A stretch of DNA of 64,000 nucleotides from Gloeocapsa sp. PCC 7428 (GTDB lineage: Bacteria; Cyanobacteriota; Cyanobacteriia; Cyanobacteriales; Chroococcidiopsidaceae): assembly GCF_000317555.1 (NCBI RefSeq), contig NC_020051.1, positions 1-64,000 on the forward strand, in the 5' to 3' direction. Shown here piece after piece: positions 27,566 to 59,039 of the stretch. The notes under the pieces were generated by a model. It was not told the origin of the DNA. It did no database searches and saw only the letters and a list, made by a program, of their open reading frames with translations. The stretch's first letter is position 1; each line of letters begins with the position of its first letter. A program made the position numbers and the translations under genes.

Positions 27566-27906
27566 AGTTTTTTACTTCTCGCTGGGATAATTGTAACAAG
27601 AAGCAAAAATTTGCATTCTCTTCAGTCCAACGTAAGAGATTGTGGAAGTAATTGCGTCTGACCGCTGATGTAAAAACTCCTTTAAAGAATTACCACTGTT
27701 GAAAGACAGTGATTTCATGTTGGTTTTATTTTTTTGTGCTTAGCTAACGGATAAGTAATAAAGAATACGAGATCTTTTGATGAACTCGCTAATCACATGA
27801 GATTTCCTTCATATCTCATCTTGTTATAGAACAGAACGGTAGAAAAAGATTGTAGAAAACAGATAGTTAAATGTCTTGCCCCTACAAATCATTTGGATCA
27901 TTAATC
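27566..27906. other. Divergent intergenic region between csp and the Gor-like gene
   Basis: No gene. It contains one TTTCAT-type direct repeat (27713-27729) oriented toward the Gor-like gene, within AT-rich sequence. No MerR-type site is present. Confidence 0.6.
27713..27729 (+). promoter_or_regulatory. RppA/CopR-type box before the Gor-like gene
   Basis: TTTCAT-GTTGG-TTTTAT. It is a variant of the window-wide direct repeat with one substitution in the second half-site, 178 bp before the start codon. Confidence 0.5.
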
Positions 27907-29250
27907 ATGAGTTTTGATTACGATTTGTTTGTGATCGGAGCAGGTCCCGGTGGGCTAGCCGCAGCGGAACGGGCTGCTCATTACGGCGCACGAGTAGCGA
28001 TCGCCGAACGTGACCAGGTAGGAGGAACCTGTGTGGTGCATGGCTGTGTGCCTGAAAAGATGATGACCTATGCTGCCGGATTTTCTCATATTTTGCAAAA
28101 CGCCGACGAATACGGATGGAATAAAGTACCGCGTCAGTTTGATTGGTCAAAATTTGCCCAAACGCGAGATGAAAATATTAATCACTTGAGTCAAGTTCAC
28201 GTCCATCATCTGCAAACGGCAGGGGTTGAGTTGATGTATGGCGATGCCACATTCTTAAATCCGCATACCCTCAAGTTGGGCGATCACCAGATCACGGCAA
28301 ACAAAGTTTTGATTGCTGTTGGTGCAAGAAGCGTTACACCCGATATACCGGGTATCAATGATGCAATTACGATGCGCGAATTGCTGGAGCTGAAGCAACA
28401 ACCCGATCACCTAGCTATCATCGGCAGCAATCACATTGCCACTAAATTTGCTGGCATTATGAATGGGCTAGTTTGCAAGGTGACTCAGATTGTGGCAGAA
28501 GAGTATATCTTACCGAATTGCGATCTTGATCTGCGTACCACTGTGCAAACAGGAATGATCCGGCAAGGAATTCAGGTTCTCAATAACACTCATGTGAGCA
28601 GCATTGAACAGGTGCAAGAGGGCTTGCAATTAGAGTTTACTGGTACTGCTACAGATGCTATTACAGTCAATACTGTTGTCTATGCAACTGATCGCGTTGC
28701 CAATATCGATCGCTTGAACCTGGAAGCCGCAGGGGTTGAAGTTCAGCAAGGTGCGATCGTTATTAATGACTATGGCCGAACCACTCAGCCTCATATCTTC
28801 GCAGTGGGTGACTGTACGCCTCGTCCGCAATGGACTCCTGCCGCAATTGCTGCTGGTCGCGCCTTTGCTGATTTTGAATTTGGCAAGCAGCCCCATATAG
28901 TCAGTTTTGCAGGAATTCCCTATGTGGTTGCTACCATGCCCGAAGCTGCAACAATTGGTTTGACTGAAACACAGGCTAGAGAAAAGCTGGGTGAATCAGT
29001 GCGTTGTTACCGTAAGACGTTTCAACCTTTATTCAACTTAATTGGTGAAGCAGAACAGGAAGCCATGCTCAAGCTAGTGGTTGATAGCAATTCTGATCGC
29101 GTGTTGGGTGTTCACATGGTGGGTGAGTGTGCTGCCGAAGTCATTCAGATGTTGGCACCCGCGCTCAAGGCAGGCGTGACGAAACAACATTTTGATGAGT
29201 CATTGGGAATTCACCCTTCGGTGGGTGAAGAATTTTTCACTTTAAAGTGA
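27907..29250 (+). CDS. Glutathione-reductase-like pyridine nucleotide-disulfide oxidoreductase
   Basis: About 447 residues: FAD motif VIGAGPGGLAAAERAA, active-site CVVHGCVPEK (two redox Cys), second FAD motif FAVGDCT, and the C-terminal dimer segment with the catalytic His in LGIHPSVGEEFFTL, all as in glutathione or related disulfide reductases. The NAD(P)H fold is unusual: the expected GxGxxA reads IIGSNHIATKFAG, with Asn for the middle Gly. I chose ATG 27907 (SFDYDLFVIG) because it gives the usual N-terminus; an in-frame ATG at 27871 adds 12 residues. Preceded by a TTTCAT box. It may also be a mercuric- or dihydrolipoyl-type reductase, but no Hg-binding C-terminal CC is present. Confidence 0.82.
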   Translation: MSFDYDLFVIGAGPGGLAAAERAAHYGARVAIAERDQVGGTCVVHGCVPEKMMTYAAGFSHILQNADEYGWNKVPRQFDWSKFAQTRDENINHLSQVHVHHLQTAGVELMYGDATFLNPHTLKLGDHQITANKVLIAVGARSVTPDIPGINDAITMRELLELKQQPDHLAIIGSNHIATKFAGIMNGLVCKVTQIVAEEYILPNCDLDLRTTVQTGMIRQGIQVLNNTHVSSIEQVQEGLQLEFTGTATDAITVNTVVYATDRVANIDRLNLEAAGVEVQQGAIVINDYGRTTQPHIFAVGDCTPRPQWTPAAIAAGRAFADFEFGKQPHIVSFAGIPYVVATMPEAATIGLTETQAREKLGESVRCYRKTFQPLFNLIGEAEQEAMLKLVVDSNSDRVLGVHMVGECAAEVIQMLAPALKAGVTKQHFDESLGIHPSVGEEFFTLK

Positions 29251-29262
29251 CAAGACTGAAGC
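29230..29262. repeat. 33-bp repeat, copy A (3' end of the Gor-like gene)
   Basis: 29 of 33 bases match copy B at 30392-30424. It includes the stop codon and the 14-bp palindrome TCACTTTAAAGTGA. The two copies bracket the potassium-channel gene. Confidence 0.7.
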
Positions 29263-29277
29263 GAGTTTGCAAGAGAC

Positions 29278-30360: not shown

Positions 30361-30391
30361 GCTTCAACTTTTTCCTTTCCCAGGATTATAA

Positions 30392-30424: not shown

Positions 30425-30435
30425 TACGAGTAATT

Positions 30436-31680: not shown

Positions 31681-31697
31681 TTTCATGTTGATTTTAT
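31681..31697 (+). promoter_or_regulatory. RppA/CopR-type box, distal copy before the copM pseudogene
   Basis: TTTCAT-GTTGA-TTTTAT. The first of two boxes between csp copy 2 and the frameshifted copM-like gene. Confidence 0.5.
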
Positions 31698-31755: not shown

Positions 31756-31772
31756 TTTCATCCTGATTTTAT
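31756..31772 (+). promoter_or_regulatory. RppA/CopR-type box, proximal copy before the copM pseudogene
   Basis: TTTCAT-CCTGA-TTTTAT, about 75 bp after the distal box and about 75-97 bp before the possible start codons. Confidence 0.55.
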
Positions 31773-31840
31773 TTTTGTTTGTCATCATTAACGTTCGTAA
31801 GAAGTTAATCTTTGACCCAAAAACCTGGAGGCTTGATTAG

Positions 31841-32514
31841 GTGGTTATGTTGATGAGAAAAACACTCGCCTCATTTCTGTTGGTCGGAATCGTGCCTTTA
31901 GTGTCATTTAGCCTAGCTGCTTGTAGTGGTACAGCCTCCGAACAAGCTGCTGAAAGTCGTCCTAGCAGCTCCACGATGGCTCAGATGGATCATGGCTCCA
32001 TGATGAACATGGATTTGGGACCTGCCGATGAAAACTTTGATCTGCGCTTCATTGATGCCATAATTCTTCATCATCGAGGCGCAATTCAGATGGCGGAAGA
32101 AGCTCAGCAAAAAACGAGCCGCTCAGAAATTCAGCAGCTTGCCGCAAACATTATTGAATCGCAAAGTCCGAAGAAAATGAGTTGTTACGAGCATGGCGGC
32201 AAGCATGGTATCCGAACGCCAGTGCAGAGCCAGTAATGTATGATGCAGCCAGTCAATCGATGATGCCCATGACCGCATCGCATCAACAGAGCATGGCGAT
32301 GCAGATGGATCTCGGAGAAGCGGACGAAGAGTTTGATTTGCGATTTATGAATGCCATGATTCCTCATCATGAGGGGGCAGTTGCAATGGCACAGGAAGCG
32401 TTAGAGAAGAGCGATCGCCCTGAAGTCAAAGAATTGGCTCAAAGCATCATCGATAGTCAGCAGCAAGAAATTGATCAGATGGTGCAGTGGCGGAAGGACT
32501 GGTACGGGCAGTAA
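31841..32514 (+). pseudogene. copM: CopM-like double-DUF305 lipoprotein, frameshifted
   Basis: A lipoprotein signal (FSLAAC) and a first DUF305 unit (FDLRFIDAIILHHRGAIQMA) are read until about 32170. One missing base near AGTCCGAAG then moves the rest into another frame (LLRAWRQAWYPNA…FMNAMIPHHEGAVAMA), ending at 32514. The intact homologue at 45412-46158 shows the correct junction (SREENELLRQWRQDWYPNA). Without repair only the first half is made. The start could be GTG 31841 or ATG 31847 or 31853; an AGGTGG precedes the last. Confidence 0.85.
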
Positions 32515-37681: not shown

Positions 37682-38038
37682 TTATGCTGCCATGGCAGTT
37701 GCCATTTTGCGGCAGGATTCAGCACAGCGACGACAAGATTCAGCACATTGCTTGCAGTGGTCGTGGTCGTGCTTCTCGCACTCTGCAGCGCAGCGATCGC
37801 AGGCTTCGGCGCAGATGCTGCACATCTGACCGTGAATATCTGAATTGCGAGCCATAAAACGAGCACAGAGGTCGCAAGTGTCAGCACAATCACGGCAGCG
37901 TTTGATACATGCAGCCATCATCTGCACCATATCGCTGTCTAAGCAAGCATTAGCACAGTTTTCGCACTCGCGTAAACAATCAAGACAAGCTTGAATGCAA
38001 GTTTCCAACAAAGAATCGTGAGATTGAGTTGTGGTCAT
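37682..38038 (-). CDS. Copper storage protein (Csp, DUF326), copy 3
   Basis: 118 residues with 21 cysteines, the most of the three copies, and CEKHDHDHC. Nearly collinear with copy 1 (27212-27565), with an extra Cys in MMAACIKRC and CAEACDRC. No signal peptide, so cytosolic. Upstream lie a 17-bp tandem repeat (38072-38105) and, further out, an oppositely oriented TTTCAT box. Confidence 0.88.
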   Translation of the reverse strand: MTTTQSHDSLLETCIQACLDCLRECENCANACLDSDMVQMMAACIKRCRDCADTCDLCARFMARNSDIHGQMCSICAEACDRCAAECEKHDHDHCKQCAESCRRCAESCRKMATAMAA

Positions 38039-38206: not shown

Positions 38207-38399
38207 TCTTATATGCTTTATACACAATCTAACTGATACAAACTAAACTCGTGAGATACTCGTTGCAACTTCATTTTTCTACGAAGAACCTAAATGCAAT
38301 AGTAAGCAATGTTAGTAAAAGCAAGAAGAAAAGAAAATTTTAAATAATGAATATAAAATCTCCAAATAAAGATTGAAATAGCAAGAGCATGATTTAAAC

Positions 38400-39421
38400 T
38401 GAAAAATTACTTGAGTTTGAACAACACGGAATCACTGTTATACCAACGGCTAAAGCAACTAACTTTACAATGAATCGTAAGCACATGCGCGAACTAGCAC
38501 ATACTCAACTGGAATCCGGACTGCTAAATATGCTTATGCAGCGAGTTTAGAGGAAATAGTGACGGCTTCTCAAAATATTAGTTTTCCAAATGTAATTAAA
38601 CCAATTATGTCTTCATCAGGAAAAGGGCAATCTGTTGTTCATATTCTGATGAGGTGAAAACTGCTTGAAATTATGCTATTCATAATTCTAGAGGAGATAG
38701 TCAAAAAACTATCGTTGAAGAATTTATTCAATTTAAACTGAAATAACTCTCTTAACCATTAAGCAGTGGAATGCACCAACATTTTTTTATTCTGCAATTG
38801 GATCCATCAAGAAAATGGAAACTATCAGGAGTCTTGGTAATCCGCTAACATTTCAAATAAATTATTAATAGAAGCACAAGCGATCATTCAAAAAGTTACT
38901 GATGTTTTGAGTGGTGCAGGATTTTTTTGGAGTAGAGTTTTTTGTTACTAAAAATGAATTTATATTTTCAAAACTTTCACATCTACCTCACGATATAGGT
39001 ATGGTGATATTGATTTCACAAAATCTGAATGAATTTGAATTACACCTGTAGGCTGTTTTAGGATTACCCATACCGCAAATTGAGTTATTCGCACCTTCAG
39101 CCAGTGCAGTTATTTTAGCTCATAAATAGGCTGACGAGTCCCCTATATTAGTGCAACGGAGGCTTTAGCAGAAAAAGACAAAAAGACATCAAATTGCGAT
39201 TATTTGGCAAGCCAGATACACGTCCTGGACGACAAATGGGAGTAGCTTTAGCTAAGGGTAACAATGTAGAGGAGGCAAGAGAAAAAGCACTACACAAGCT
39301 GCTAGCAAAATCAAAGTTGTTTAAAAATATGTTTCCCGCATTTCTACCATCTCAAGTACAGTTACTTAAGGAAAATGCAGCAATTGCTTTAGCTAAAAGT
39401 ATTCAACGTAAGTTGATTTGA
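38400..39421 (+). pseudogene. purT: Decayed purT (formate-dependent GAR transformylase)
   Basis: Recognisable PurT segments occur in several frames: [37 protein letters not shown], and a C-terminal 75-codon frame 39194-39421 (LRLFGKPDTRPGRQMGVALA). The first 80 or so residues are missing, and there are many stops. An enzyme of purine synthesis in life, dead here; a chromosomal-type gene relic beside lnt. Confidence 0.8.
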
Positions 39422-39434
39422 ACTCCGCTAAGCA

Positions 39435-40161: not shown

Positions 40162-40309
40162 AAGTTTTTAAACTAAGAATAACTATAAAGGCACACAGTA
40201 CACAAAGAGTTTATATTAAATCTGGTCAATCGCTCGTAATATAAAGTAGCTAATAACTCAGCAACACAATTCCCAGTTACCAATTATCGATTCCCTGCAA
40301 TGTACCTAT

Positions 40310-43108: not shown

Positions 43109-43494
43109 TGAGAAAATAAAACTTATTGATTAAGAGAAAGTTCAATAAGCTTTTACTGGTATGTAAAGATAAGTATTGATTGCTTAATCAATATCAATCT
43201 CTGCATACATTGACTAAACTTCAAGACCTGCTATTGATAGTATATTTAAATCTCTAAAGACAAACTCAGATTAAAGTCTTGACAAGAGTAATACATCTTT
43301 CAAATGGAGTAAAAGTGATTTATTACTAATTAGGTAAAAGGATTTCATTCTAATTTCATCTTTATATGCAGAGAAGAGCTACATTTCTCTGCATACAATC
43401 AATATCTTGGTGTATAAGTTCTGTTGGTGTTAGCTTGAGCTTTGGCTCAATCTGGGTAAAATAAGCCAGTAAGGCAAGGCGATCGCCAGAAAAA
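43109..43494. other. Intergenic region with an orphan box and a hairpin
   Basis: No gene. It holds the TTTCAT box 43343-43359 and an 8-bp-stem hairpin GCAGAGAA…TTCTCTGC at 43368-43392. Confidence 0.5.
43343..43359 (+). promoter_or_regulatory. Orphan RppA/CopR-type box
   Basis: TTTCAT-TCTAA-TTTCAT, perfect half-sites. It points away from the DUF305 gene (42431-43078) and into the 3' end of the multicopper oxidase, so it would produce antisense or a small RNA. Confidence 0.6.
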
Positions 43495-45255: not shown

Positions 45256-45272
45256 TTTCATCTTGATTTCAT
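45256..45272 (+). promoter_or_regulatory. RppA/CopR-type box before copM
   Basis: TTTCAT-CTTGA-TTTCAT, perfect half-sites, followed by AAATGACAAG. It lies 72 bp upstream of a MerR-type promoter for the same gene. Confidence 0.75.
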
Positions 45273-45343
45273 TTTTAAATGACAAGCTGGGATTGTGTGC
45301 TGTTGAAAATTCTAGAAAAGTTAGCCAGTATACATGGAGACAT

Positions 45344-45375
45344 TTGAATCTCCAGTTGACTGGAGAGATCATAAT
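45344..45375 (+). promoter_or_regulatory. MerR-type promoter of copM
   Basis: TTGAAT, 20-bp spacer with the dyad CTCCAGTTGACTGGAGAG, then CATAAT. It overlaps the beginning of the longest open frame (45334), which excludes that start and supports ATG 45412. Confidence 0.78.
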
Positions 45376-45411
45376 GAAAAAGCCTCCCCTCTAAGTAGCA
45401 ATGATATAGGT

Positions 45412-46158
45412 ATGAAGTTTACACAAAGTATTTCTTTGAAAACAGGGTTATTAGCATTGACCTTCGCAGCGATCGCCTCCACAGGCGGATTACTTGCATC
45501 TTGTGCAAACACGACTCAAAGCCAAGTCCCTAATACATCTGCAACTGACGCAGGTTCAACTACTTCTCAGAACCAACCATCGCCAAACACCATGACGGAT
45601 ACAGGTGGTATGCAGGGCATGGATCACAGTAGCATGAACCATAACATGGCTATGGACTTAGGTCCTGCTGATGCCAATTATGACTTGCGGTTTATTGACG
45701 CAATGCGACTACATCATCGCGGCGCGATCGCCATGGCTCAAGAAGCTCAACAAAAATCGCAACGCCCAGAAATTAGAAAACTAGCAGAAAATATTATTCA
45801 AGCTCAAAGTAGAGAGGAAAATGAGCTGTTGCGGCAGTGGCGACAAGACTGGTATCCCAATGCTCCTCAAGAATTTGTAGCTTACGGTAGTGAGAGCAAA
45901 CCACTGGTACCGATGTCGGAACAACAACAGCAAAGCATGACGATGCTTGAAGACTTAGGACCTGCTGATGCTGAGTTTGACTTGCGGTTTATGAATGCAA
46001 TGATTGCCCACCATGAGGGTGCTTTGATGATGGCACAAGATGCTTTAGCAAAATCCCAGCATCCGGAAATTAAGAAATTGGCTCAAGAAATTATTGATTC
46101 GCAGCAAGCGGAGATTGCTCAAATGAAGCAGTGGCAACAAGCTTGGTACAAACAGTAA
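45412..46158 (+). CDS. copM: CopM-like periplasmic copper-binding lipoprotein (two DUF305 units)
   Basis: 248 residues: lipobox LLASC (Cys31), a Met/His-rich linker (GMQGMDHSSMNHNMAMD), then two DUF305 repeats, FDLRF-type, with RLHHRGAIAMA and MIAHHEGALMMA. In Synechocystis, CopM is a DUF305 protein encoded with copRS that binds Cu and reduces its uptake; the same role is inferred. ATG 45412 is chosen because the MerR-type promoter lies inside the longer frame and the signal peptide starts there. It is the intact homologue of the frameshifted gene at 31841. Both regulatory motifs of the window precede it. Confidence 0.9.
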   Translation: MKFTQSISLKTGLLALTFAAIASTGGLLASCANTTQSQVPNTSATDAGSTTSQNQPSPNTMTDTGGMQGMDHSSMNHNMAMDLGPADANYDLRFIDAMRLHHRGAIAMAQEAQQKSQRPEIRKLAENIIQAQSREENELLRQWRQDWYPNAPQEFVAYGSESKPLVPMSEQQQQSMTMLEDLGPADAEFDLRFMNAMIAHHEGALMMAQDALAKSQHPEIKKLAQEIIDSQQAEIAQMKQWQQAWYKQ

Positions 46159-46227: not shown

Positions 46228-46244
46228 TTTCATTCTATTTTCAT
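46228..46244 (+). promoter_or_regulatory. RppA/CopR-type box before the cusBA-like operon
   Basis: TTTCAT-TCTAT-TTTCAT, then GATGAGAAAG and a -10-like TAGAAT at 46260, 15 bases after the box. It precedes the adaptor gene by 162 bp. Confidence 0.75.
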
Positions 46245-46406
46245 TTTTAGATGAGAAAGTAGAATTTAAGGCAACGATCTGTTTGGTCAGAAAAGCTAAC
46301 CTTGATTTTGCCATGCCAGCAACTTTAAACAGATGCGAGTGCATCAAGCACATTGTTAAACTCCAGCCTTAGCATTTCCTGTTGTACTTAAGGATATTTG
46401 TCATCA

Positions 46407-48137
46407 ATGCAGTACGTCTCCCATCATGCCAAACAATGTACAGCAAGCCGCTGTGTTGCTGGAGCAATGTTCAGTTTGTTGATCTTAGCTACTCCTAACA
46501 AAGTTTTAGCTCATGGCGGACATGGAAATGAGTTTCAAGGCGGAGCAAATCAGGCTGCTGACGCAATTCAAGTTGATGCCACAACTGCTAAACGACTAGG
46601 AATAAAAGTTGAGCCAGTGACTCGTCAGCCAATAGCTGTAGGAATTAAAACTACAGGTCAAATTGAAACATTACCGAATCAACAAGTTGAGGTAACGGCT
46701 CCTTTAAATAGCACGGTAGTCAAATTACTCGCTAACCCTGGAGACAGTGTAAGAAAAGGACAAGCGGTGGCGGTTATTTCCAGTCCTGAATTAGTTCAAT
46801 TAAGAGTTGAGTCGCAGGAAAAGCAAGCAGAAGGACTGGCAGATCTACAACAGGCACAAGCCGATTTAAGCCTAGCTCGTCAGAACTATCAACGATATTT
46901 GCAGATCGCAACAGATGAAACCGCACAAGCACGCAGCCAAGTGGCATTTGCACAAGAAAAGTATAACCGCGATCGCGAACTAGCAGCAGCAGGCGCACTA
47001 CCGCGTCGCAATGCCTTAGAATCACAAACTCAACTGGCACAAGCTCAAGCCGAACTCACTAAAGCTGCGAGTCGCCGAGATGTACTAGAAGCAGAAGCAC
47101 AACTCAAACGCGCACAATCAGCTGTTGAGGTAGCTCAATCTCGAATTAACCTCAGTAATGCTAATTACCAAACTCGGCTGCAACAACTGGGAACTCGTGC
47201 TGATGCTAGAGGATTAGTAACTGTCACTGCACCCATATCTGGTACAGTTACTGACCGAGAAGCTAGCCTCGGTCAATCATTCCAAGATGCTGGTGGTAAG
47301 CTGATGACGATAGTTAATGATAATCGCGTGTTTGCCACAGCAAATATCTACGAAAAAGATTTAGCTCAAGTTAAGACAGGTCAACGTGTAAACATTAAGG
47401 TAGCTTCACTCCCAAATCGCACCTTCAGCGGACGAATTACGCGAATTGGCTCGGTAGTAGAAGGAGAAACGCGGGTAGTGCCAGTACAGGCGGAAGTAGA
47501 TAACCTGAATGGACAACTCAAACCTGGGATGTTTGCAGAATTAGAGGTATTAACTGACCAAACGTCAGCAGAGACAATCGCCATTCCGAGTTCAGCAGTG
47601 GTAGACGCAAATGGCAAACAATTGGTTTACGTGCAAAATGGCAATGCTTATATAGCGGCAGAAGTTACTCTAGGTGAAACCTTTGGAGATTTGGTTGAGG
47701 TCAAGAGTGGTCTATTCGAGGGAGATTTGATTGTTACTGTGCGATCGCCGCAACTTTACGCGCAATCTTTACGTGGTGGTAGTACAACTCAGGAAGGGGA
47801 ACAACAGCAAGCACCTATACCCGCAACGCCAACTAGCAACAGTATTCCGTTACCTTGGTGGGTGGTGGGAGCCATCGGAGGAACTGCAATTGGGGCTGGA
47901 GCATTTGTGGCAGGTACTCTGTGGTCTAATCGCCGTAACCAACGCCATTTGAGTGGAGCATATGTAGGAGTACCAAATGATGGCTTCGTTACTTCATCAG
48001 AAGTTGCTTCGGGGGAGAGTAGTCACCATGAGCCTGAAATCTACGAAGCTCCTATATGGGTAGAAAATAACAATCACCAACCGACACCTAAAGTAAGTCA
48101 ACTCGAATCCGGCACTAAAAAATATTCTGACTCCTGA
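46407..48137 (+). CDS. Heavy-metal RND adaptor (CusB/CopB-like)
   Basis: Periplasmic adaptor of a metal-exporting tripartite pump. 576 residues: signal peptide (FSLLILATPNKVLA), lipoyl and barrel halves, a long coiled-coil hairpin (about 130-255), beta-barrel (about 290-400), and unusually a C-terminal membrane helix (PLPWWVVGAIGGTAIGAGAF, about 480-500) followed by a roughly 70-residue cytoplasm-like tail. I chose ATG 46407, 12 bases after AAGGA; a TTG at 46398 is too close to it. Followed after 9 bp by the permease. Confidence 0.9.
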   Translation: MQYVSHHAKQCTASRCVAGAMFSLLILATPNKVLAHGGHGNEFQGGANQAADAIQVDATTAKRLGIKVEPVTRQPIAVGIKTTGQIETLPNQQVEVTAPLNSTVVKLLANPGDSVRKGQAVAVISSPELVQLRVESQEKQAEGLADLQQAQADLSLARQNYQRYLQIATDETAQARSQVAFAQEKYNRDRELAAAGALPRRNALESQTQLAQAQAELTKAASRRDVLEAEAQLKRAQSAVEVAQSRINLSNANYQTRLQQLGTRADARGLVTVTAPISGTVTDREASLGQSFQDAGGKLMTIVNDNRVFATANIYEKDLAQVKTGQRVNIKVASLPNRTFSGRITRIGSVVEGETRVVPVQAEVDNLNGQLKPGMFAELEVLTDQTSAETIAIPSSAVVDANGKQLVYVQNGNAYIAAEVTLGETFGDLVEVKSGLFEGDLIVTVRSPQLYAQSLRGGSTTQEGEQQQAPIPATPTSNSIPLPWWVVGAIGGTAIGAGAFVAGTLWSNRRNQRHLSGAYVGVPNDGFVTSSEVASGESSHHEPEIYEAPIWVENNNHQPTPKVSQLESGTKKYSDS

Positions 48138-48146
48138 AATATCAAT

Positions 48147-51100
48147 ATGCTCAATGCCATTCTCAAGTGGTCAATTGTTCAACGTTGGCTGGTTGTGCTG
48201 GGAGCAATTATCGTGACGGTGTTGGGAATTTATAACCTAACACAAATGCCGTTGGATGTTTTTCCTAACTTTGCACCACCCCAGGTTGAAATTCAGACTG
48301 AAGCACCAGGGCTAGCTCCTGAGGAAGTTGAATCCTTAATTACATTACCCGTCGAAAGTGCAATCAATGGTACTCCTGGAGTTGAAACGGTTCGTTCTTC
48401 CTCCGCAGTAGGCATCTCTGTAGTCAAAGTCATTTTTAGCTGGGGAACCGATATTTATCAAGCACGTCAGCTTGTGACTGAGCGATTGCAACAAGCTCAG
48501 AGTAAGTTACCGCAAGGTATTGAACCACCCCAAATTTCTCCGATTAGCTCGCCCATTGGCACAGTCCTTCAGTATGCTTTTACTGCTGAAACTACACCAT
48601 TGATGGAAGTAAGGCGATTAGTTGATCGCGATATTACAAATCGATTATTAGCAGTTCCAGGTATTTCTCAAGTGATCGCGTATGGCGGAGATGTTCGTCA
48701 GTATCAAGTTTTGGTTGACCCTGCTAAATTAAAAGCTTTTAATGTCACTTTAGCTGACGTTACAGATGCGGCAGCAGCAGCGAATACAAATGCCGCAGGA
48801 GGATTTCTCGTCAGTCCCGACCAGGAATTATTAATTAGGGGTATTGGTCGAATTTCTACAATCGAAGACTTGCAGCGATCGGTAGTTACTGCTCGCAACG
48901 GTACGCCAGTCTTGTTAGGTGATGTGGCTGACGTGCAAATTGGTGCCGCCTTGCAGCGCGGTGATGGTAGTTTGAACGGTCAGCGGGCAGTTGTTGTGAT
49001 GATTAATAAACAACCCCAAGCTGATACCCCAACTGTCACGCAGGCAATTGAAGCCGCAATGGCAGAACTTCAAACCAGCTTACCATCAGATGTCAAGTTT
49101 ACGGTTACTTTCCGGCAACAAAATTTTATTGATGATGCGATTGAAAACGTTCAAAGTTCTTTGCGAGATGGAATCATCATTGTTTCCATTATCCTGCTGC
49201 TATTTTTGATGAATTGGCGCACTGCCATGATCACGCTTAGCGCTATTCCACTCTCGGTGCTGATCGGGATGATCATCCTCAACTTGTTTGGTCAAGCCAT
49301 CAACACAATGACGTTGGGAGGATTAGTCGTAGCAATTGGCTCAGTGGTAGATGACTCAATTGTAGATATGGAAAATGCTTACCGAGGGTTACGGAAAAAT
49401 CAACTAGCAGGAACTCCTGTTCATCCGTTTCAGGTTGTTTATGACACTTCAGTAGAAGTACGTGTCAGCGTACTGTTTTCTACGGTAATCATTGCCGTGA
49501 TATTTGCGCCAATTTTTACTCTTACAGGAGTCGAAGGTCGGATTTTTGCGCCGATGGGTGTGGCGTATTTAGTGTCGATTTTTGCTTCTACATTAGTAGC
49601 AATGACACTTTCACCAGCCTTGTGTGCCATTTTGTTAACTAAGCAGCAATTACCGGAGGATGACACCTGGGTTTCGCGCTTTTCCCAAAGATTGTATCGT
49701 CCACTTTTGAAGTTTTCGATAAATTTTCCTAGTGTTATTTTGGTTAGCGCAGTTGCGGTGTTTATTGCTTCTTTAATTATTTTAACGTCCTTGGGACGGG
49801 TATTTTTACCAGAATTTCAGGAGCGATCGCTTGTTAATGCCATGTTGCTTTATCCTGGCACTTCTTTAGAAGCTACCAATCAAGCAGGTTTAGCAATTCA
49901 AGATGCGCTTAAAGATGACCCGCGATTTGAATCAGTGCAGTTACGCGCTGGACGCGCCCCAGGAGATGCTGATGCAGGTGGTGTCAACTTAGGACACGTT
50001 GATATTGAAATCAGCGACGAAGGAATGAAAGATCGGGAAACGACGGTTGAGAAGGTAAGAGCAGAATTTGCGAAATTACCTGGAGTTGCACCGAGTATTG
50101 GAGGTTTTATTTCGCACCGCATGGATGAGGTATTATCTGGGGTAAGAAGTGCGATCGCAGTCAAAATCTTTGGTCCGGAACTCGATGAATTACGTAGCAT
50201 TGGCGCTGAAGTGCAAACAGCGATGAGCAACATTGCAGGTGTTGTCGATTTGCAGTTAGAGCCGCAAGTTCCTGTTAAACAAGTACAAATTCAATTTGAC
50301 CGTGCTACTGCTGCGCGCTATGGTCTTACTGTTGGCAATCTTTCAGAAATGATTGAAACCGCCTTGAATGGTAAAGTTGTTTCTCAAGTATTGCAAGAAC
50401 AACAACTGTTCGATCTGTTGGTGTGGCTGCAAGCCGATTCGCGTAACAACCTAGATACGATTCGTAACTTACTTGTAGATACTCCCGAAGGGCAAAAAAT
50501 TCCTCTCGCTCAATTAGCTCAAGTTAACTATGGCACTGGTCCAAATACAATCAATCGAGAAAATGTTTCGCGCTTAATCGTTGTTTCTGCCAACGTAGCT
50601 GGGCGAGATTTAGGTTCGGTTATTGAAGATATTCAAGCAAACATCAAACAACAAGTACAACTACCGTCGAGCTACTTTATCCAGTACGGTGGTCAATTTG
50701 AATCCGAACAGCGAGCCAGCCAAAACTTACTTGTCTTTGGCACGGTTGCTCTTATTATCATAGCTGTTCTTATGTACTTTGCTGTCAAATCAATACCAGC
50801 TATGTTAATGATTATGGTTAATTTACCTCTAGCTTTAGTTGGGGGCATTTTCTCCGTTGCTCTGGGTGGTGGAATCCTCTCTGTAGCATCAATGGTAGGG
50901 TTCATTACTCTTTTTGGAGTAGCGACACGTAATGGGCTATTACTAGTAGAAAATTACAACGCTAAGTTGGCACAAGGAATGCAAATAAAAAAAGTGTTAC
51001 TTGAAGGGTCAACCGAGCGCTTAGCCGCAATTTTGATGACTGCTTTTACCTCAGCTTTAGGTATGGTTCCACTTGTTATAGGTAGCGGGGCTGGTAAAGA

Positions 51101-51284
51101 AATTTTACAACCTTTGGCTGTTGTTGTCTTGGGCGGATTGTTTACTTCTACTGCATTAACTTTACTAGTTTTACCGGCTTTGTATTCTCAATTTAGTAGA
51201 CTTTTGGTTCCGAAGCAAATAAAGCAAACAATTCAAACTGAAGGCTTTAACGCACAAAGTGTAACACATCACCAACAAATTTAA
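48147..51284 (+). CDS. Heavy-metal RND permease (CusA/CopA-like)
   Basis: Exports monovalent or divalent metal ions using the proton gradient. 1045 residues, twelve-helix RND layout. The N-terminal PLDVFPNFAPPQVEIQTEAP and the LFGVATRNGLLLVENY segment are typical of the heavy-metal (HME) branch. In TM4 the usual HME signature with DFG reads VVAIGSVVDDSIVDMENA, with AIG for DFG, so the metal relay residues differ from CusA/CzcA. The Asp pair is retained. Part of a three-gene operon with the adaptor and the lipoprotein. Confidence 0.92.
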   Translation: MLNAILKWSIVQRWLVVLGAIIVTVLGIYNLTQMPLDVFPNFAPPQVEIQTEAPGLAPEEVESLITLPVESAINGTPGVETVRSSSAVGISVVKVIFSWGTDIYQARQLVTERLQQAQSKLPQGIEPPQISPISSPIGTVLQYAFTAETTPLMEVRRLVDRDITNRLLAVPGISQVIAYGGDVRQYQVLVDPAKLKAFNVTLADVTDAAAAANTNAAGGFLVSPDQELLIRGIGRISTIEDLQRSVVTARNGTPVLLGDVADVQIGAALQRGDGSLNGQRAVVVMINKQPQADTPTVTQAIEAAMAELQTSLPSDVKFTVTFRQQNFIDDAIENVQSSLRDGIIIVSIILLLFLMNWRTAMITLSAIPLSVLIGMIILNLFGQAINTMTLGGLVVAIGSVVDDSIVDMENAYRGLRKNQLAGTPVHPFQVVYDTSVEVRVSVLFSTVIIAVIFAPIFTLTGVEGRIFAPMGVAYLVSIFASTLVAMTLSPALCAILLTKQQLPEDDTWVSRFSQRLYRPLLKFSINFPSVILVSAVAVFIASLIILTSLGRVFLPEFQERSLVNAMLLYPGTSLEATNQAGLAIQDALKDDPRFESVQLRAGRAPGDADAGGVNLGHVDIEISDEGMKDRETTVEKVRAEFAKLPGVAPSIGGFISHRMDEVLSGVRSAIAVKIFGPELDELRSIGAEVQTAMSNIAGVVDLQLEPQVPVKQVQIQFDRATAARYGLTVGNLSEMIETALNGKVVSQVLQEQQLFDLLVWLQADSRNNLDTIRNLLVDTPEGQKIPLAQLAQVNYGTGPNTINRENVSRLIVVSANVAGRDLGSVIEDIQANIKQQVQLPSSYFIQYGGQFESEQRASQNLLVFGTVALIIIAVLMYFAVKSIPAMLMIMVNLPLALVGGIFSVALGGGILSVASMVGFITLFGVATRNGLLLVENYNAKLAQGMQIKKVLLEGSTERLAAILMTAFTSALGMVPLVIGSGAGKEILQPLAVVVLGGLFTSTALTLLVLPALYSQFSRLLVPKQIKQTIQTEGFNAQSVTHHQQI

Positions 51285-54067: not shown

Positions 54068-54084
54068 TTTCATCTTAATTTCAT
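54068..54084 (+). promoter_or_regulatory. RppA/CopR-type box before porin copy 2
   Basis: TTTCAT-CTTAA-TTTCAT, followed by ACTGTCATT. Its end is 50 bp before the start codon 54135. Confidence 0.75.
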
Positions 54085-54134
54085 AATTAACTGTCATTAT
54101 TTATATTAAAAGATTCTTTGGTGTGAGCAAAATT

Positions 54135-55901
54135 ATGCAGAAACTTTTCTGGAGTGTTTTAAAACTAAGCCCAACACTCTTAAGTGCTATATTTCTTTTG
54201 CTTGAACGTACTCAAGCTAGTGAAGTACCTGTGAGGGCGTTAGTATCTAACTCTTCTACTATTGTTACAACTCAAGATAGCACTTCACTAAAACAAAACT
54301 CTATCAATCCACAAGTTTTTGTAGCAAGCACTACTTCTTCTATCAAAAGTGTTTCAGAAGATATCTTGTCTTCTTCCAGACCTCAACCTCCAGATGTAAA
54401 GCTAGCTAATACTTATCAAACTATCGAAAATCCCTCAGCTTTGGATGCACTAGCTCAAGTTACATCAGTTTCTCAATTATCTGACGTACAACCCACCGAT
54501 TGGGCATTCCAGGCACTGCAATCTTTAGTAGAACGTTATGGCTGTATTGCTGGGTACCCTGATAGTACTTATAGGGGCAATCGGGCTTTGACGCGCTATG
54601 AATTTGCTGCTGGTTTAAATGCTTGTTTAGACCGAGTAAACGAACTCATTGCCACAGCAACTGCAGACGCAGTGAATCGGGAAGACCTAGCAACTTTACA
54701 GCGATTACAAGAAGAATTTTCAGCAGAACTAGCCACATTGCGCGGTCGCGTGGATGCATTAGAAGCACAAACAGCCGAACTAGAAGCTAATCAGTTCTCT
54801 ACTACTACCAAGTTAGGTGGGGAAGTTGTATTTGGCTTAGCTGATGTTTTTGGTGATTCAGCTGTTGGTGGAAGTGACTTAGAGTACAATACCATTGCTG
54901 CTGTCCGCGCGCGATTAAACTTTGATACTAGCTTTACTGGTAGAGATCTTTTAAGAACTCGTTTACAAGCTCGTAATATTGATAACAACACTGGAGAAAC
55001 TGGTACCTCAATGACCCGCTTGGGATTTGATGGTGACGAAGGTAATGATGTTATTATTGATGACTTCTTTTACCGTTTTCCACTCAACAACCAGTTTAGA
55101 GTCTTTCTTGCACTCAACAGTTTTGAACCAAGAGATTTTATTGATGTAGTCAGCCCTTTCTATAGTAGTGGTGATGGGGCTGTTTCCCGTTTTGGTCGTC
55201 TCAATCCAGTTTTGCGAATACCAGATGACAGTTCAGGGCTTGCGTTTGACTTTAAGCTAAATGACACCTTTACTTTAGCTGCTGGATATTTAGTCCCAAC
55301 TGATTTTGCTAGTAACCCTAGTCAAAAGGCTGGTCTTTCTGATGGTGCATATGCAGCTTTCACCAATGTAGTCTTTAATGCAACCAATAATTTTAAACTA
55401 GGTTTATCTTATGTCCGTTCTTATGCGCCTGGGGGTGAGGTCAATCTCACAGGCAGTACAGGTAGTGGCATTGCTCAAGACCCATTAGGAGTTGCAACTT
55501 CAGCTGATTCTGTTGGCGCACAAGCACAGTTAGGAGTAGGTGAAGGTTTGATTTTATCAGGTTGGGCTGGTTATACCTGGGCTAAAGCACAAGCTAGTGG
55601 TTTAGGTGTTATTGAGGGAAATGAAGCCAGGATTTTTAATTGGGCTGCGGCGGTTTCTTTTCCAGATTTGGGCAAAGAAGGTAATCTTGCTTCTATTATC
55701 TTTGGTCAACCACCGAAGGTAGTCGATAGCGATCTGATAGAGGATCAAAATACCTCTTATCATCTTGAAGGTTTTTACCGTTTTAAACTCACAGAAAATG
55801 TTTCAATTACTCCAGGAGCATTTGTAATTTTCAATCCAGAACATAACAATGATAATGACACAATCTATGTTGGAACAATTCGGACTACCTTTGAATTCTA
55901 A
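54135..55901 (+). CDS. SLH-OprB porin (iron uptake porin family), copy 2
   Basis: 588 residues: signal helix (LSAIFLLLERTQA), a 70-residue linker absent from copy 1, SLH domain (about 112-175; VSQLSDVQPTDWAFQAL, IAGYPDSTYRG), coiled coil (about 180-215; LEAQTAELEAN), and an OprB barrel ending TTFEF. ATG 54135 lies at a good distance from the TTTCAT box; a GTG at 54123 is possible. It is clearly a paralogue of copy 1. Confidence 0.9.
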   Translation: MQKLFWSVLKLSPTLLSAIFLLLERTQASEVPVRALVSNSSTIVTTQDSTSLKQNSINPQVFVASTTSSIKSVSEDILSSSRPQPPDVKLANTYQTIENPSALDALAQVTSVSQLSDVQPTDWAFQALQSLVERYGCIAGYPDSTYRGNRALTRYEFAAGLNACLDRVNELIATATADAVNREDLATLQRLQEEFSAELATLRGRVDALEAQTAELEANQFSTTTKLGGEVVFGLADVFGDSAVGGSDLEYNTIAAVRARLNFDTSFTGRDLLRTRLQARNIDNNTGETGTSMTRLGFDGDEGNDVIIDDFFYRFPLNNQFRVFLALNSFEPRDFIDVVSPFYSSGDGAVSRFGRLNPVLRIPDDSSGLAFDFKLNDTFTLAAGYLVPTDFASNPSQKAGLSDGAYAAFTNVVFNATNNFKLGLSYVRSYAPGGEVNLTGSTGSGIAQDPLGVATSADSVGAQAQLGVGEGLILSGWAGYTWAKAQASGLGVIEGNEARIFNWAAAVSFPDLGKEGNLASIIFGQPPKVVDSDLIEDQNTSYHLEGFYRFKLTENVSITPGAFVIFNPEHNNDNDTIYVGTIRTTFEF

Positions 55902-56265: not shown

Positions 56266-56282
56266 TTTCACTTTAATTTCAC
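56266..56282 (+). promoter_or_regulatory. RppA/CopR-type box before DUF2808 gene 1
   Basis: TTTCAC-TTTAA-TTTCAC (both half-sites end in C), then AATGTCAAG and a -10-like TATTAA 15 bases on. It lies 61 bp before the start codon. Confidence 0.7.
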
Positions 56283-56343
56283 TTGGTAATGTCAAGCTAT
56301 TAAATAAGGAGTTTACTAATATAACTGCTTAAGGACTTTTGCA

Positions 56344-56817
56344 ATGAATAAATTAATCTTCTCTACTGTTTTTACAATCGCGATCGCGTCTTCAGTTCCA
56401 GATGCTTTAGCAGGAGGAGTTTTACGTGATGCGAAAGCTTCTCATCTTGTTCATAGTGGAGCACATCCCAACAATGCTCGTTTATCTGCAACACATCATT
56501 TTGAAGTACACGTTCAGGGTGGTGATTTGTCACAACTTACTATTGATGTACCAAAGGGAATGAAAGTAAGCGATCGCATTGTTGTTACTGATGAATCTGG
56601 CAAAAAAATTGATAATACGATTTCTGTCAACGATAGGAAGATTGCGATCGCTTTTTCACAACCTATACGTACAGGTACAACGCTATCAGTCTCTATGAAA
56701 GGAGTTAGATCGCAATTATCATTGCTTGGTCGTGTATGGCTTTACCCAGTTTATGCAAGGAAGACAGGAATGACCGAAGACATAAGAATTGGTATGGCTA
56801 GAATTCAAACGTATTGA
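56344..56817 (+). CDS. DUF2808 exported protein, copy 1
   Basis: 157 residues: signal peptide ending about PDALA, then the DUF2808 beta-rich domain (HHFEVHVQGGDLSQLTIDVP, RIVVTDESGKKI, VWLYPVY). Small secreted proteins of unknown role found widely in cyanobacteria. Paralogue of the gene at 57670 with the same regulatory box, so induced with the copper genes by inference. Confidence 0.82.
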   Translation: MNKLIFSTVFTIAIASSVPDALAGGVLRDAKASHLVHSGAHPNNARLSATHHFEVHVQGGDLSQLTIDVPKGMKVSDRIVVTDESGKKIDNTISVNDRKIAIAFSQPIRTGTTLSVSMKGVRSQLSLLGRVWLYPVYARKTGMTEDIRIGMARIQTY

Positions 56818-56834
56818 TGGCATTACACTTATAC

Positions 56835-56868
56835 TTTTTAGACCTGAAGTGATGCTCAGGTCTAAAAA
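56835..56868. terminator. Bidirectional intrinsic terminator
   Basis: The 13-bp arms TTTTTAGACCTGA and TCAGGTCTAAAAA are perfect complements around an 8-base loop, with A- and T-runs on both sides. It lies 18 bp after the DUF2808 copy 1 stop. Confidence 0.85.
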
Positions 56869-57079
56869 AGTAAATGTTACCCGTCATGCTTATCTCATAA
56901 AAAGCCTTTTAGTAGGAGAAGTTTATTTTATTGTCAGCTTTTCTAAAACCAACTTAACATAAACCTGAAATCAATTTGACTATGATAATCAATTTGTTGC
57001 TACTAATTTTTAGGTAGATATGTGCTGGTTATTATACTAATAGTTACGAATTCAAAAAAAATGACTGTTGTGTAGTGTA

Positions 57080-57096
57080 TTTCATACTAATTTCAT
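57080..57096 (+). promoter_or_regulatory. Orphan RppA/CopR-type box with -10
   Basis: TTTCAT-ACTAA-TTTCAT, followed by a perfect -10 TATAAT at 57108-57113 (or TAGTAT at 57113-57118). No open frame follows; instead an intrinsic terminator starts about 30 bases on. Confidence 0.7.
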
Positions 57097-57120
57097 TTTC
57101 ATGTTCGTATAATAGTATTT

Positions 57121-57197
57121 AATCACTTACACCCTTAATGCAACATTGGGCTTTTCCACTGTGCTACTCAAGTACAAGCGAAAAGCCTATTTTTTTC
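57121..57197 (+). ncRNA. Candidate metal-responsive small RNA
   Basis: Predicted transcript of about 75 nt from just after the TATAAT to a T-run ending about 57197. Its 3' part is a hairpin, GGCTTTTC (57149-57156) with GAAAAGCC (57180-57187), followed by TATTTTTTT. The start is inferred from the promoter elements; no coding frame of useful length is present. It may equally be an attenuated leader or the remnant of a gene lost between the two DUF2808 genes. Confidence 0.45.
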
Positions 57198-57584
57198 TAT
57201 CAAAATATATCATTCTAAAGCTCTAATAGGCATTAAATCCAAGTGCAGAAGCAAAAATCGTATAGGAACTTCGCATTTTTCAAACTTTGAGAATACTGAT
57301 TTTTTTGCTGTCTTGAGCAATACTTTCTTTCAGTAGAGACAATCTATCATAAGATAAGTGAAAAGCATTTCCCTTATTGCTTCATTAGACCTCAAGAGTC
57401 ATAATATTTTTGAGGGATACATATTTCTTAATAAGAATGAATTAAAGTTTCTTTATTTAGCTTAGCTAGTGGTTCTCAAGTATAGATTCTTTAAATTATG
57501 TATTCAATCATTATTAATGCTTTGATGCGATAAGTTTAAAGTGCTTTGATAAAGCATAAACATTTTGTTTATCTAGTGTATATA
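57198..57584. other. AT-rich intergenic region
   Basis: No gene or motif recognised between the sRNA candidate and the next TTTCAT box. Confidence 0.5.
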
Positions 57585-57601
57585 TTTCATTCTAATTTCA
57601 T
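57585..57601 (+). promoter_or_regulatory. RppA/CopR-type box before DUF2808 gene 2
   Basis: TTTCAT-TCTAA-TTTCAT, then ACCTGTCAGG and a -10-like GATAGT at 57615-57620. That places the transcript start near 57627, favouring ATG 57670 as the gene start. Confidence 0.75.
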
Positions 57602-57669
57602 TATTACCTGTCAGGATAGTAAATAAGAAGAATATGATTTTCTCTCTTGAATTCCAAAGGGCAATTTCA

Positions 57670-58149
57670 ATGAAAAAACTAATTTCGCTTACTACTTTGA
57701 CTTTATTGAGTATATATTCAGTCCCAGCTGCTTTTGCGGAGGGAGTTCCAGGTGAAACATCTTTTTCTCATCTCTTTCATAGCAATGCACATCCCAATGA
57801 TGCTCGCGCTTTAAGCGCTATGCATCATTTTAAACTACACGTTCAAGGGAGCGATTTATCACAAATTTCAATAGATTTACCAGAGGGCGTTAAGATTAGG
57901 CGAGGAGTTGAAGTTACGGATCAATCTGGCAAGAAATTAGATGCTGATGTTTCTATCAATGACAAAAAAGCTACTGTCGCTTTTTCTCGACCAGTATCTC
58001 CAGAAACAATTCTTACAGTTTCGATGAAAGGAGTCCAAACTCCATTTCCTGGATACAGAAAAACTTGGCGTTATTCGGTAAGTGGCAAAAATCAAAATAT
58101 GGAAGAAGATGTTCTATTTGGTACAGCTCAAATCCAAACTTATGAGTAG
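57670..58149 (+). CDS. DUF2808 exported protein, copy 2
   Basis: 159 residues: signal peptide (KKLISLTTLTLLSI…AAFA), then the same domain as copy 1 (MHHFKLHVQGSDLSQISIDL, TDQSGKKLDADVSI, TWRYSVS). ATG 57670 has AAAGG ten bases upstream and gives a canonical signal peptide; the frame extends to ATG 57634, which would lie only about 7 nt into the transcript. Role unknown. Confidence 0.8.
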   Translation: MKKLISLTTLTLLSIYSVPAAFAEGVPGETSFSHLFHSNAHPNDARALSAMHHFKLHVQGSDLSQISIDLPEGVKIRRGVEVTDQSGKKLDADVSINDKKATVAFSRPVSPETILTVSMKGVQTPFPGYRKTWRYSVSGKNQNMEEDVLFGTAQIQTYE

Positions 58150-58390
58150 TAGATTGCTGCTTAAAAGATAGAGAAGTAAGAGGTGAAGAACCTCAATTTA
58201 CATAAAATTTAGAAAGAGAAAGTAAACATTTCTAATGAACTTTTATGTATTTTTCAATTACATGGAGTAGTTTTCTTCAGATTTTACTTAGTTGTTACTT
58301 CTGATTGGTAAAACTATCTCTTACAACTCAAATAGTCAAAGATTAAGTTGTGTTTTCACAACTTACACCAATACATTAGAGAGGTTTGTC

Positions 58391-58684
58391 ATGAATAAAC
58401 TGTTGATAGTATTCGGAACTACACTTTTTCTAGGTATAGTTTCTTTTGAGCCTACTGCTTTTGCAAATACAAGTAGTTCTCATGCAAGAACATGCCAAAA
58501 TATTCCTATAGCTGAACCTAGCGGAGGTGCTACTAGAATTCGGCTTCAAGCCATAGAGCGATGTAACAAAGGCTCCCAGCAATTTACAAAAACTCATCGT
58601 CGGAAAATGTGTCAATCTGCGTCTATAGCAGAGCCTACAGGTGGTGCTACTAGAGTAGGGATCCGTGCCATGAATAACTGTTAA
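58391..58684 (+). CDS. Small exported protein with two Cys-AEPxGGATR repeats
   Basis: 97 residues from ATG 58391: signal peptide (LLIVFGTTLFLGIVSF…AFA), then two homologous units of about 25 residues separated by a basic linker (TKTHRRKM). Each unit has Cys, then IAEPSGGATRIRL or IAEPTGGATRVGI, then a terminal Cys, so one disulfide per unit is likely. I recognise no family. The downstream neighbour is rppA. A frame extends upstream to 58292, but it lacks a signal and the ATG here is well placed. Confidence 0.7.
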   Translation: MNKLLIVFGTTLFLGIVSFEPTAFANTSSSHARTCQNIPIAEPSGGATRIRLQAIERCNKGSQQFTKTHRRKMCQSASIAEPTGGATRVGIRAMNNC

Positions 58685-59039
58685 TATAGACGTTTTGTAG
58701 CAATGTTTTCTGAGGCTTGACAATATTAAAGAGTTGTAGCAAACAACAAATTATGGAGTGTGTAGCAGATGAAAAATAAATAGTACCACCTAGAAGAAGC
58801 ATAAACTTCCCTAGCTGTTATTAAGATGATTTTCTACAGCCTTGAGAACTTCGCAAATTTTCTGAAAACGATTTACTTAAGGCTGTCTCGCTTAATTTAT
58901 CTTAACATCCTCATTTCCACTAATATTTCATTCTGATTTCATAATCTTGTGTCAATCTATCTTTAAGGATAAACCTTACAATTACTTAAGCAGATACAAA
59001 TTTGTATACTGTAATACTTATTGAAAATGATTGAGTGTT
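58685..59039. other. rppA upstream region
   Basis: No gene; the TTTCAT box 58926-58942 is the only motif recognised. Confidence 0.6.
58926..58942 (+). promoter_or_regulatory. RppA/CopR-type box before the response regulator
   Basis: TTTCAT-TCTGA-TTTCAT, then TGTGTCAATC and a -10-like TATCTT 15 bases on. The presence of the box before the regulator gene suggests autoregulation. Confidence 0.75.

Follow-up and report, generated by a model that had tools for sequence, protein, structure and literature searches.

The window analysed here, i.e. the first 64 kb of contig C5 (201,822 bases) of Gloeocapsa sp. PCC 7428, carries an island of copper genes in which the direct repeat TTTCAT-N5-TTTCAT recurs, thereby raising the question of whether these repeats belong to one regulon and which regulator reads them. 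The genome comprises 5.88 Mb in five contigs, including the 27-fold larger C1 (5.43 Mb). On the sequence evidence given below, it is highly likely that a CopR-type regulator encoded on the plasmid itself (59031-59744) binds these repeats, and that they constitute a copper regulon. The regulon appears to be real and very probably functional, as an enlarged version of the known CopR regulon. Its size, its promoter grammar, the DUF2808 genes and the RNA promoters are new; CopR and a putative TTCAT repeat were already known from Synechocystis. The initial annotation of the window had proposed that an OmpR-type regulator controls metal export, a porin and DUF2808 proteins together, and this proposal is supported by the clustering of the sites in the genome and by their recurrence before like genes.

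The direct repeat in the window and the genome

All twelve coordinates first reported for the repeat were right, and all twelve sites lie on the + strand. The description of nine copies with identical half-sites and three with TTTTAT as the second half is literally true; exact TTTCAT pairs number eight, and the ninth identical pair, at 56266, reads TTTCAC/TTTCAC. TTTTAT follows a TTTCAT first half at 27713, 31681 and 31756. With at most one mismatch to TTTCAT-N5-TTTCAT, 11 of the 12 sites were recovered; shuffled windows gave a mean of 0.89 (standard deviation 0.99, maximum 4), and none of 100 shuffles reached 11. A composite element, TTTCAY-N5-TTTYAY-N7-TGnnAnnnT, was searched with the reversed pattern as control. 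The genes previously assigned to the repeats (Gor-like, copM, cusB, porin, two DUF2808 and rppA) were upheld. The sites, treated as putative CopR boxes with presumed extended -10 elements, and the genes and open reading frames (ORFs) around them are as follows:

27713..27729, + strand: weak box before the Gor-like gene, without the A of the -10
27871..29250, + strand: Gor-like pyridine nucleotide-disulphide oxidoreductase (TIGR01424 486.1 bits, below the cut-off of 606)
31681..31697, + strand: second, weaker box, 75 bases upstream of the 31756 box, without -10 letters
31756..31772, + strand: box with TTTTAT second half before the split copM-like gene; composite, extended -10 at 31780-31788
31841..32514, + strand: copM-like DUF305 gene in two overlapping ORFs (frameshift); PF03713 49.1 and 80.2 bits
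38190..38206, + strand: exact box (repeat match), 152 bases upstream of a - strand DUF326 gene and reversed relative to it
43343..43359, + strand: exact box (repeat match), 235 bases upstream of a - strand DUF305 gene and reversed relative to it
45256..45272, + strand: box before copM; exact and composite, extended -10 at 45280-45288
45334..46158, + strand: CopM-like double DUF305 protein (PF03713, two stretches)
46228..46244, + strand: box before cusB-cusA; exact and composite, extended -10 at 46252-46260
46398..51284, + strand: CusB-type adaptor and CusA/CzcA-type RND pump (TIGR00914 833.8 bits, cut-off 701.45)
54068..54084, + strand: box before the OprB porin; exact and composite, extended -10 at 54092-54100
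54123..55901, + strand: SLH-OprB porin (PF04966, PF00395)
56266..56282, + strand: box with TTTCAC half-sites before the first DUF2808 gene; composite, extended -10 at 56290-56298
56344..56817, + strand: DUF2808 protein, probably secreted (PF10989 about 30 bits, 30.2-30.4, cut-off 25.3)
57080..57096, + strand: box of an orphan promoter; exact, TATAAT 11 nt behind the second half-site
57119..57199, + strand: proposed RNA of about 80 nt with intrinsic terminator (hairpin and U-tract)
57585..57601, + strand: box before the second DUF2808 gene; exact and composite, extended -10 at 57609-57617
57634..58149, + strand: DUF2808 protein, probably secreted, with predicted Ig-like fold near YcnI (PF10989 25.9 bits, cut-off 25.3)
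58926..58942, + strand: box before rppA; exact and composite
58950..58958, + strand: presumed extended -10 TGTCAATCT of the rppA promoter, its letters recurring at the same offset in 162/220 homologous sites
59031..59744, + strand: OmpR-type response regulator of the RppA/CopR family, presumed to activate by binding the repeats (Pfam Response_reg and Trans_reg_C; NF041734)
59722..61068, + strand: sensor kinase, RppB/CopS family (NF041735 655.5 bits, cut-off 400)
C5:65249-65265, - strand: thirteenth site, outside the window, exact and composite, before a His-rich P-type ATPase gene (PF00122) starting 76 bases on

According to the ORF list, no + strand ORF of at least 60 amino acids (aa) stands close behind 38190, 43343 or 57080. 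The split copM-like gene may reflect a frameshift, a pseudogene or a sequencing error.

In the whole genome, the composite element occurs at eight sites, all on C5 between 31.7 and 65.3 kb (31756, 45256, 46228, 54068, 56266, 57585, 58926 and, on the - strand, 65265), and its reversed control at none. The initial annotation had named an equal density of the motif elsewhere in the genome as the outcome that would speak against a regulon; the search gave a different picture, with composite sites confined to the island. The exact repeat was found 17 times (10 on C5, 7 on C1), compared with 3 matches of the reversed pattern. Nine of the ten exact sites on C5 fall within 38-66 kb, and the tenth (C5:131664) lies inside an 809-aa ORF. 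That the repeats arose by chance in T-rich intergenic DNA might be argued from the one-mismatch search of the genome, which gave 145 matches versus 182 for the reversed control; this search was rejected as evidence, and only the exact or composite form was counted because the one-mismatch pattern drowns in background. Exact and composite counts both exceed all controls, thereby refuting chance for these two forms, and as an explanation of the sites it can practically be dismissed.

Three of the seven exact matches on C1 are located inside mechanical ORFs of at least 100 aa; for one of these three, C1:1347205, the ORF is only 103 aa long, and a 298-aa ORF starts about 150 bases further. One match precedes a chromosomal CopM family gene (NF049983 132.1 bits, cut-off 90) and is the sole chromosomal exact repeat before a cop gene. 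At C1:2073847-2073897, two exact repeats 34 bases apart stand upstream of an ABC ATPase gene and have no extended -10 letters; the best NCBIfam matches of this ATPase are manganese (Mn) and Mn/iron (Fe) transporters, below cut-off.

Predicted promoter arrangement and box-bearing genes in relatives

Recurrence of the box was followed in 80 loci (1.445 Mb) around regulator relatives, namely the best 80 of 100 relatives found, with genes labelled by their best blastp matches to window proteins. A spacing scan of TTTCAT-Nk-TTTCAT in these loci gave 222 matches at k=5, 11 at k=0 and 0-2 at each of the other 19 values up to k=20; scrambled half-sites gave 0-3. The composite element occurred 169 times and its reversed form not at all. 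At least one exact site is present in 68 of the 80 loci, with 1 to 12 in each. The consensus of 202 distinct contexts is A(0.96)-TTTCAT-C(0.85)YTRA(0.97)-TTTCAT, followed by T24(0.86), G25(0.84), A28(0.96) and T32(0.93). Of 220 sites, 162 have TG..A...T starting at +24, a figure that becomes 83 of 122 once similar flanks are collapsed, and none has it at +23 or +25; elsewhere the mean is 1.4 and the maximum 12. Within the window, 11 of the 12 sites retain T24-G25 and 7 retain TGnnAnnnT at the fixed spacing; site 57080 deviates, with TATAAT shifted one base further and no TG.

The extended -10 of sigma-70 promoters is TGn-TATAAT, in which -11A and -7T are the most constrained. T24, G25, A28 and T32 are read as the -10 because their register matches this element. 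A TGTCA-like word followed by a -10-like box about 15 bases on, as first described, was not supported in that form; the word most plausibly represents, or is probably part of, the extended -10 region itself, and therefore the repeat would cover about -39 to -23 and replace the -35. This placement agrees with a separate marker, since in 21 of 26 boxed copies the Nostocales RNA described below starts 37-38 bases after the first base of the box, at most 2 bases off the predicted +1.

The genes behind the box were counted in the 80 loci where a gene scored at least 60 bits and 320 upstream bases were at hand, with TTTCAY-N5-TTTYAY sought from 320 bases upstream to 60 inside. The box precedes 36 of 42 DUF2808 genes, 28 of 32 copM genes and 21 of 25 CusB genes, as well as 6/6 OprB, 32/81 RppA, 10/35 CusA, 4/14 DUF305-like genes of the 15604 type, 6/47 CusF-like, 1/9 DUF326 and 1/1 Gor-like genes. 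No box was found before RppB (0/86), CopA-type ATPase (0/19), MerR (0/11) or cupredoxin (0/8) genes, or for seven other labels (0/1 each). RppB is the inner gene of its operon, and the zeros of the CopA-type ATPase, MerR and cupredoxin genes are consistent with control by other regulators. Among the 222 exact sites, 26 stand before an unlabelled ORF, 21 before none and 1 runs off a locus edge. Five unlabelled box genes were scanned and encode two pyridoxal phosphate (PLP) enzymes (PF00291), a CemA/PcxA family protein, an MFS transporter and a sigma-70 factor. The PF00291 enzymes are named as cysteine synthase family in two plasmid records, where they are divergent from rppA. At L108:16334-18789 and L113:12837-15288, a cysteine-synthase-family gene and an unknown 442-aa gene are divergent from rppA, with a box variant that has CT for TG; through such genes the regulon may extend to thiols or a metallophore.

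Sixty whole genomes (the own genome, 2 congeners, 16 of the same family and 41 of the same order) contained 127 composite sites versus 7 control matches, with composites present in 41 genomes; three of these genomes, G000, G002 and G010, carry the same island and so are not independent of one another. Loci were inspected for 30 of the 41 genomes, giving 31 sites, the own island and the congener copy included. Twenty-four sites precede a gene of a window family: CusB (10), copM (6), multicopper oxidase (2), DUF326 (2), and DUF2808, TolC, CusA and CopA-type ATPase (one each). The other seven comprise two before cysteine-synthase-like genes (judged by eye), one inside an ORF and four unexplained. 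On plasmids of Oscillatoria nigro-viridis PCC 7112, Tolypothrix sp. PCC 7712 and Nostoc sp. C052, a box stands no more than 320 bases from seven of eight annotated DUF2808 genes, the exception being the third such gene of PCC 7112.

The island itself is likely to have been transferred recently, because segment 44592-64000 is 98.1% identical over 19.4 kb to G010, a genome of another genus (L148), and segment 43359-63259 is 100% identical over 19.9 kb to the congener G002 (L149). In G003 (L150), blastn at E 1e-20 detected nothing similar to the window. Such mobility, together with the 2 kb without an intact gene behind 38190, would suit repeats that are iterons or fragments of a mobile element rather than promoters. 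This explanation is nevertheless highly improbable: the flanks vary from site to site, and in relatives the boxes stand at family medians of 43-187 nt ahead of genes, in gene orientation, with fixed-offset letters and in 122 flank clusters.

The regulator and competing readings

The product of 59031 scores 402 bits with NF041734 (RppA; cut-off 250) and is 64% identical to pSYSX CopR; the adjoining kinase likewise exceeds the cut-off of NF041735, so that a regulator and a kinase of CopR type stand beside the sites. The stretch SNVVAAQ-RLLRRKL, which we take to be the recognition helix, is identical in all five regulators compared, pSYSX CopR included. The name RppA given to the regulator at first is the label of its NCBI family, and CopR offers the better functional comparison.

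In the mechanism that we infer, the sensor RppB/CopS would detect copper outside the cytoplasm and phosphorylate RppA/CopR, which would bind as a head-to-tail dimer to the two 11-bp-spaced half-sites of A-TTTCAT-CYTR-A-TTTCAT, at the place of the -35 hexamer. The bound regulator would recruit RNA polymerase to the extended -10 (TGn-nAnnnT) starting 7 nt behind the second half-site, and would thus activate rather than repress. The proposed regulon would comprise copM (two plasmid genes and one chromosomal), cusBA, the OprB porin, two DUF2808 genes, the P-type ATPase, rppAB and a short RNA. If so, the porin and possibly small RNAs would be tied to copper stress, and a set of likely copper-inducible promoters is offered.

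PhoB is an OmpR-family protein that binds as a dimer to 11-bp direct repeats replacing the -35. The system of the window is of CopR type by regulator, box and core genes, and by analogy would work like a PhoB-type activator on such repeats. The repeats could accordingly be suspected to form a Pho-type (PhoB/SphR) regulon, as they share the period and the regulator superfamily with PhoB, and the distance to the -10 is similar to that of PhoB. This is extremely improbable, as the half-site, the regulator family and the genes are unlike those of Pho, no phosphate gene was seen among the box-bearing genes of the window, and the PhoB model TIGR02154 gives the regulator 178.8 bits versus a cut-off of 296.2, compared with 402 bits for RppA (cut-off 250).

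A more serious question is whether this regulator is the only reader of the boxes. A second RppA/RppB-type pair is located on the same contig:

C5:72066-74177 (L018:12067-14178), - strand: second RppA/RppB-type pair, labels partly by eye

Transcribed divergently from this pair are a short gene of adaptor type and the gene of a CzcA-like pump, and an ArsR/SmtB-like gene and a P-type ATPase gene adjoin. Several observations weigh against a copper regulon read by the 59031 product alone. The second RppA-type regulator (C5:73473), 14 kb away, is 60% identical and shares the SNVVAAQMRLLRRKL stretch, and the adaptor and CzcA-like pump of its system are preceded by a box of similar form, TTTCAC-N5-TTTCAT-N8-TGGCAGACT; because of these two likenesses, both regulators may bind one set of sites. 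Four sites of the window, 27713, 31681, 38190 and 43343, are without the conserved -10 letters, and 38190 and 43343 are also geneless behind; these four may be weak, decayed or reversed sites. TGnnAnnnT is missing at the fixed offset in 59 of the 222 sites of the loci, 49 of 81 RppA-type genes have no box in the searched range, and exact boxes are absent from 12 of the 80 loci. The loci were picked via the regulator, so that their content is skewed to metal islands, and their gene labels are best matches to window proteins only. The six boxed OprB genes, which are the porin support outside the window, form a single sequence cluster. One CopA-type ATPase gene, of a class without boxes in the loci, has a composite site in another genome.

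These points leave some room for a class of boxes read by several RppA-type regulators, C5:73473 and perhaps a Mn regulator among them, in an island that answers several metals. In its favour are the second pair beside its CzcA-like pump with the similar box and shared stretch, the tandem exact pair on C1 upstream of an ABC ATPase with best, below-cut-off matches to Mn and Mn/Fe transporters, and the report, in excerpts of PMC4182526, that in Synechocystis the putative CopR sequence also occurs upstream of mntC and in the region separating nrsRS from nrsBACD. This reading is nonetheless rather unlikely: the tandem pair has no TGnnAnnnT, the N8 spacing of the second system occurs in 0 of 220 sites, the mntC and nrs genes showed no differential expression in the strains of that study (excerpts of PMC4182526), and the island genes are of copper type (copM, a CusA-type pump and a CueO-like oxidase). 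The 59031 product is the likelier reader of the boxes because the one next to its own gene appears to be autoregulatory.

The CopR site of Synechocystis sp. PCC 6803, mentioned in the initial annotation, is in print as the putative site TTCATN4-5TTCAT with a regulon of two operons, copMRS and copBAC; the array used there did not carry the plasmid genes, and the pSYSX cop operons are also reported to be CopR-controlled (excerpts of PMC4182526). The window system resembles CopRS in its regulator family and in a TTCAT direct repeat before copM (45256) and the RND operon cusBA (46228), as on pSYSX, where both cop promoters carry the full composite element. The difference is one of size: two operons there, whereas the present system has eight composite promoters, with DUF2808, OprB and P-type ATPase genes as new members, and a promoter for an RNA besides. 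The spacing measured here and in pSYSX is TTCAT-N6-TTCAT (period 11) versus the printed N4-5, perhaps a matter of notation. The RppA/NrsR (sll0797) protein of Synechocystis is in the same NCBI family as the window regulator, and the motif differs: AAMAWCTCYYWCCCC, given for it in excerpts of the review PMC13421787, was not enriched in the window (3 matches at up to 2 mismatches, 2.29 expected). CopR is therefore a better functional comparison than sll0797. A loosely defined published site thus becomes an exactly searchable promoter grammar that predicts CopR-driven promoters, and the repeats near mntC and nrs without CopR control (excerpts of PMC4182526) might reflect a missing or shifted extended -10.

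DUF2808 proteins, small RNAs and reversed boxes

We tentatively suggest, with somewhat less than even confidence, that the cyanobacterial CopR regulon is a mobile plasmid-borne envelope programme rather than a switch for two pump operons, and that its core would include secreted, histidine-bearing DUF2808 proteins, with copper bound in a YcnI-like Ig fold, and CopR-driven small RNAs. The genome encodes four DUF2808 proteins: the chromosomal pair scores 193.7 and 144.2 bits, the island pair about 30 and 25.9 bits; the island type is divergent, as indicated by its low PF10989 scores relative to the chromosomal copies. Both island proteins exceed the cut-off, and all 30 members of alignment A2 match PF10989 at E<=1. 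In an alignment of 42 proteins (40 from the loci and 2 from the window), His46, His64 and His69 (numbering of the second protein of the window) are conserved in 71%, 83% and 79%, and its other three histidines (49, 53 and 65) in just 21-26%. No histidine was seen by eye in the matching stretch of the chromosomal copies.

The AlphaFold2 model of the 57634 protein is a nine-strand sandwich (pLDDT 81.4). Its best solved matches by VIA-align are apo and copper-bound YcnI (Z 12.1-12.2, root-mean-square deviation 2.4, 112-113 residues), followed by a Nocardia Ig-like protein (Z 11.3) and pilins (at most 11.1); Foldseek ranks YcnI 30th, after pilins and adhesins. The likeness to YcnI is a lead and not proof, because other Ig folds score just about one Z unit lower. 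Like the DUF2808 proteins, Bacillus subtilis YcnI (DUF1775), the closest solved fold by VIA-align, occurs with copper genes. Sequence similarity was not detected: the 30 DUF2808 members gave no DUF1775 row at E<=1, the similar fold notwithstanding, and the DUF2808 alignment retrieved no YcnI among solved structures, its one match being profilin (E 1.6). YcnI is described as having a monohistidine brace (excerpts of PMC8424229). Secretion of DUF2808 proteins fits the appearance of Anabaena All7597, a DUF2808 protein, in an exoproteome study (excerpts of PMC10957091). A limited literature search found no copper role of DUF2808 in print (one item, on zinc). The uncharacterised DUF2808 family would gain a role in extracellular copper handling that is open to testing.

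Behind the 57080 box there is no ORF of note, and the predicted transcript of about 80 nt ends in a terminator with z -3.86 (1 of 200 shuffles as good). Rfam gave no match at gathering score between 26000 and 64000 of the window, this RNA included. RNAs behind 38190 and 43343 were rejected, and none is claimed there, because the downstream folds are no better than shuffles (z 0.04 and -0.62). In Nostocales, a different, structured RNA of 89-117 nt with a covarying closing stem and a terminator stands behind boxes, for example at the following places, to which 26 others can be added:

L052:5900-6016: Nostocales RNA
L060:9726-9822: Nostocales RNA
L065:4438-4554: Nostocales RNA

In several loci (e.g. 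L055, L060 and L113), it stands just ahead of rppA's own box. Across 16 aligned members, both partners varied in 9 of 16 base pairs (score 0.302 versus 0.138 shuffled; 2 of 500 shuffles reached 9), and the P1 stem was chosen from single folds before pair counting, which favours that structure; RNAalifold on alignment A1 was weak (-0.76 kcal/mol, 9 pairs). The RNA model found 29 copies in 89 sources, with 22 distinct sequences; loci L019-L021 entered this search alone. The box accompanies 26 of the 29, the 16 training members having been picked by box; 3 of the 13 non-training copies are identical to known ones, and 7 of the 10 new copies are boxed, four of those being one sequence. AACUYCUC, present in 19 of 29 copies (a cruder CUCC-like count of 22 also caught tails), could pair with ribosome-binding sites. 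No Rfam match was obtained at gathering score in six loci, nor for two L065 copies at E<=1, and a limited literature search did not find the RNA in print. Twelve plasmid records match the RNA model; its absence from their annotation says nothing, because their gene tables hold no RNA genes at all. Model R1 gave 0 of 60 in the window genome and 59 relatives, under strict filters and with none known to match, which shows little.

Further observations concern the reversed boxes of the island. The stretch 38207-40309, about 2 kb behind the 38190 box, has no intact gene, and its short ORFs resemble remnants. The DUF326 paralogs at 27212-27565 and 37682-38038 (- strand) share 75% identical DNA over 357 bases, and each has a box about 150 bases upstream in reverse orientation; a box in normal orientation precedes a DUF326 gene in L026, L133 and L134.

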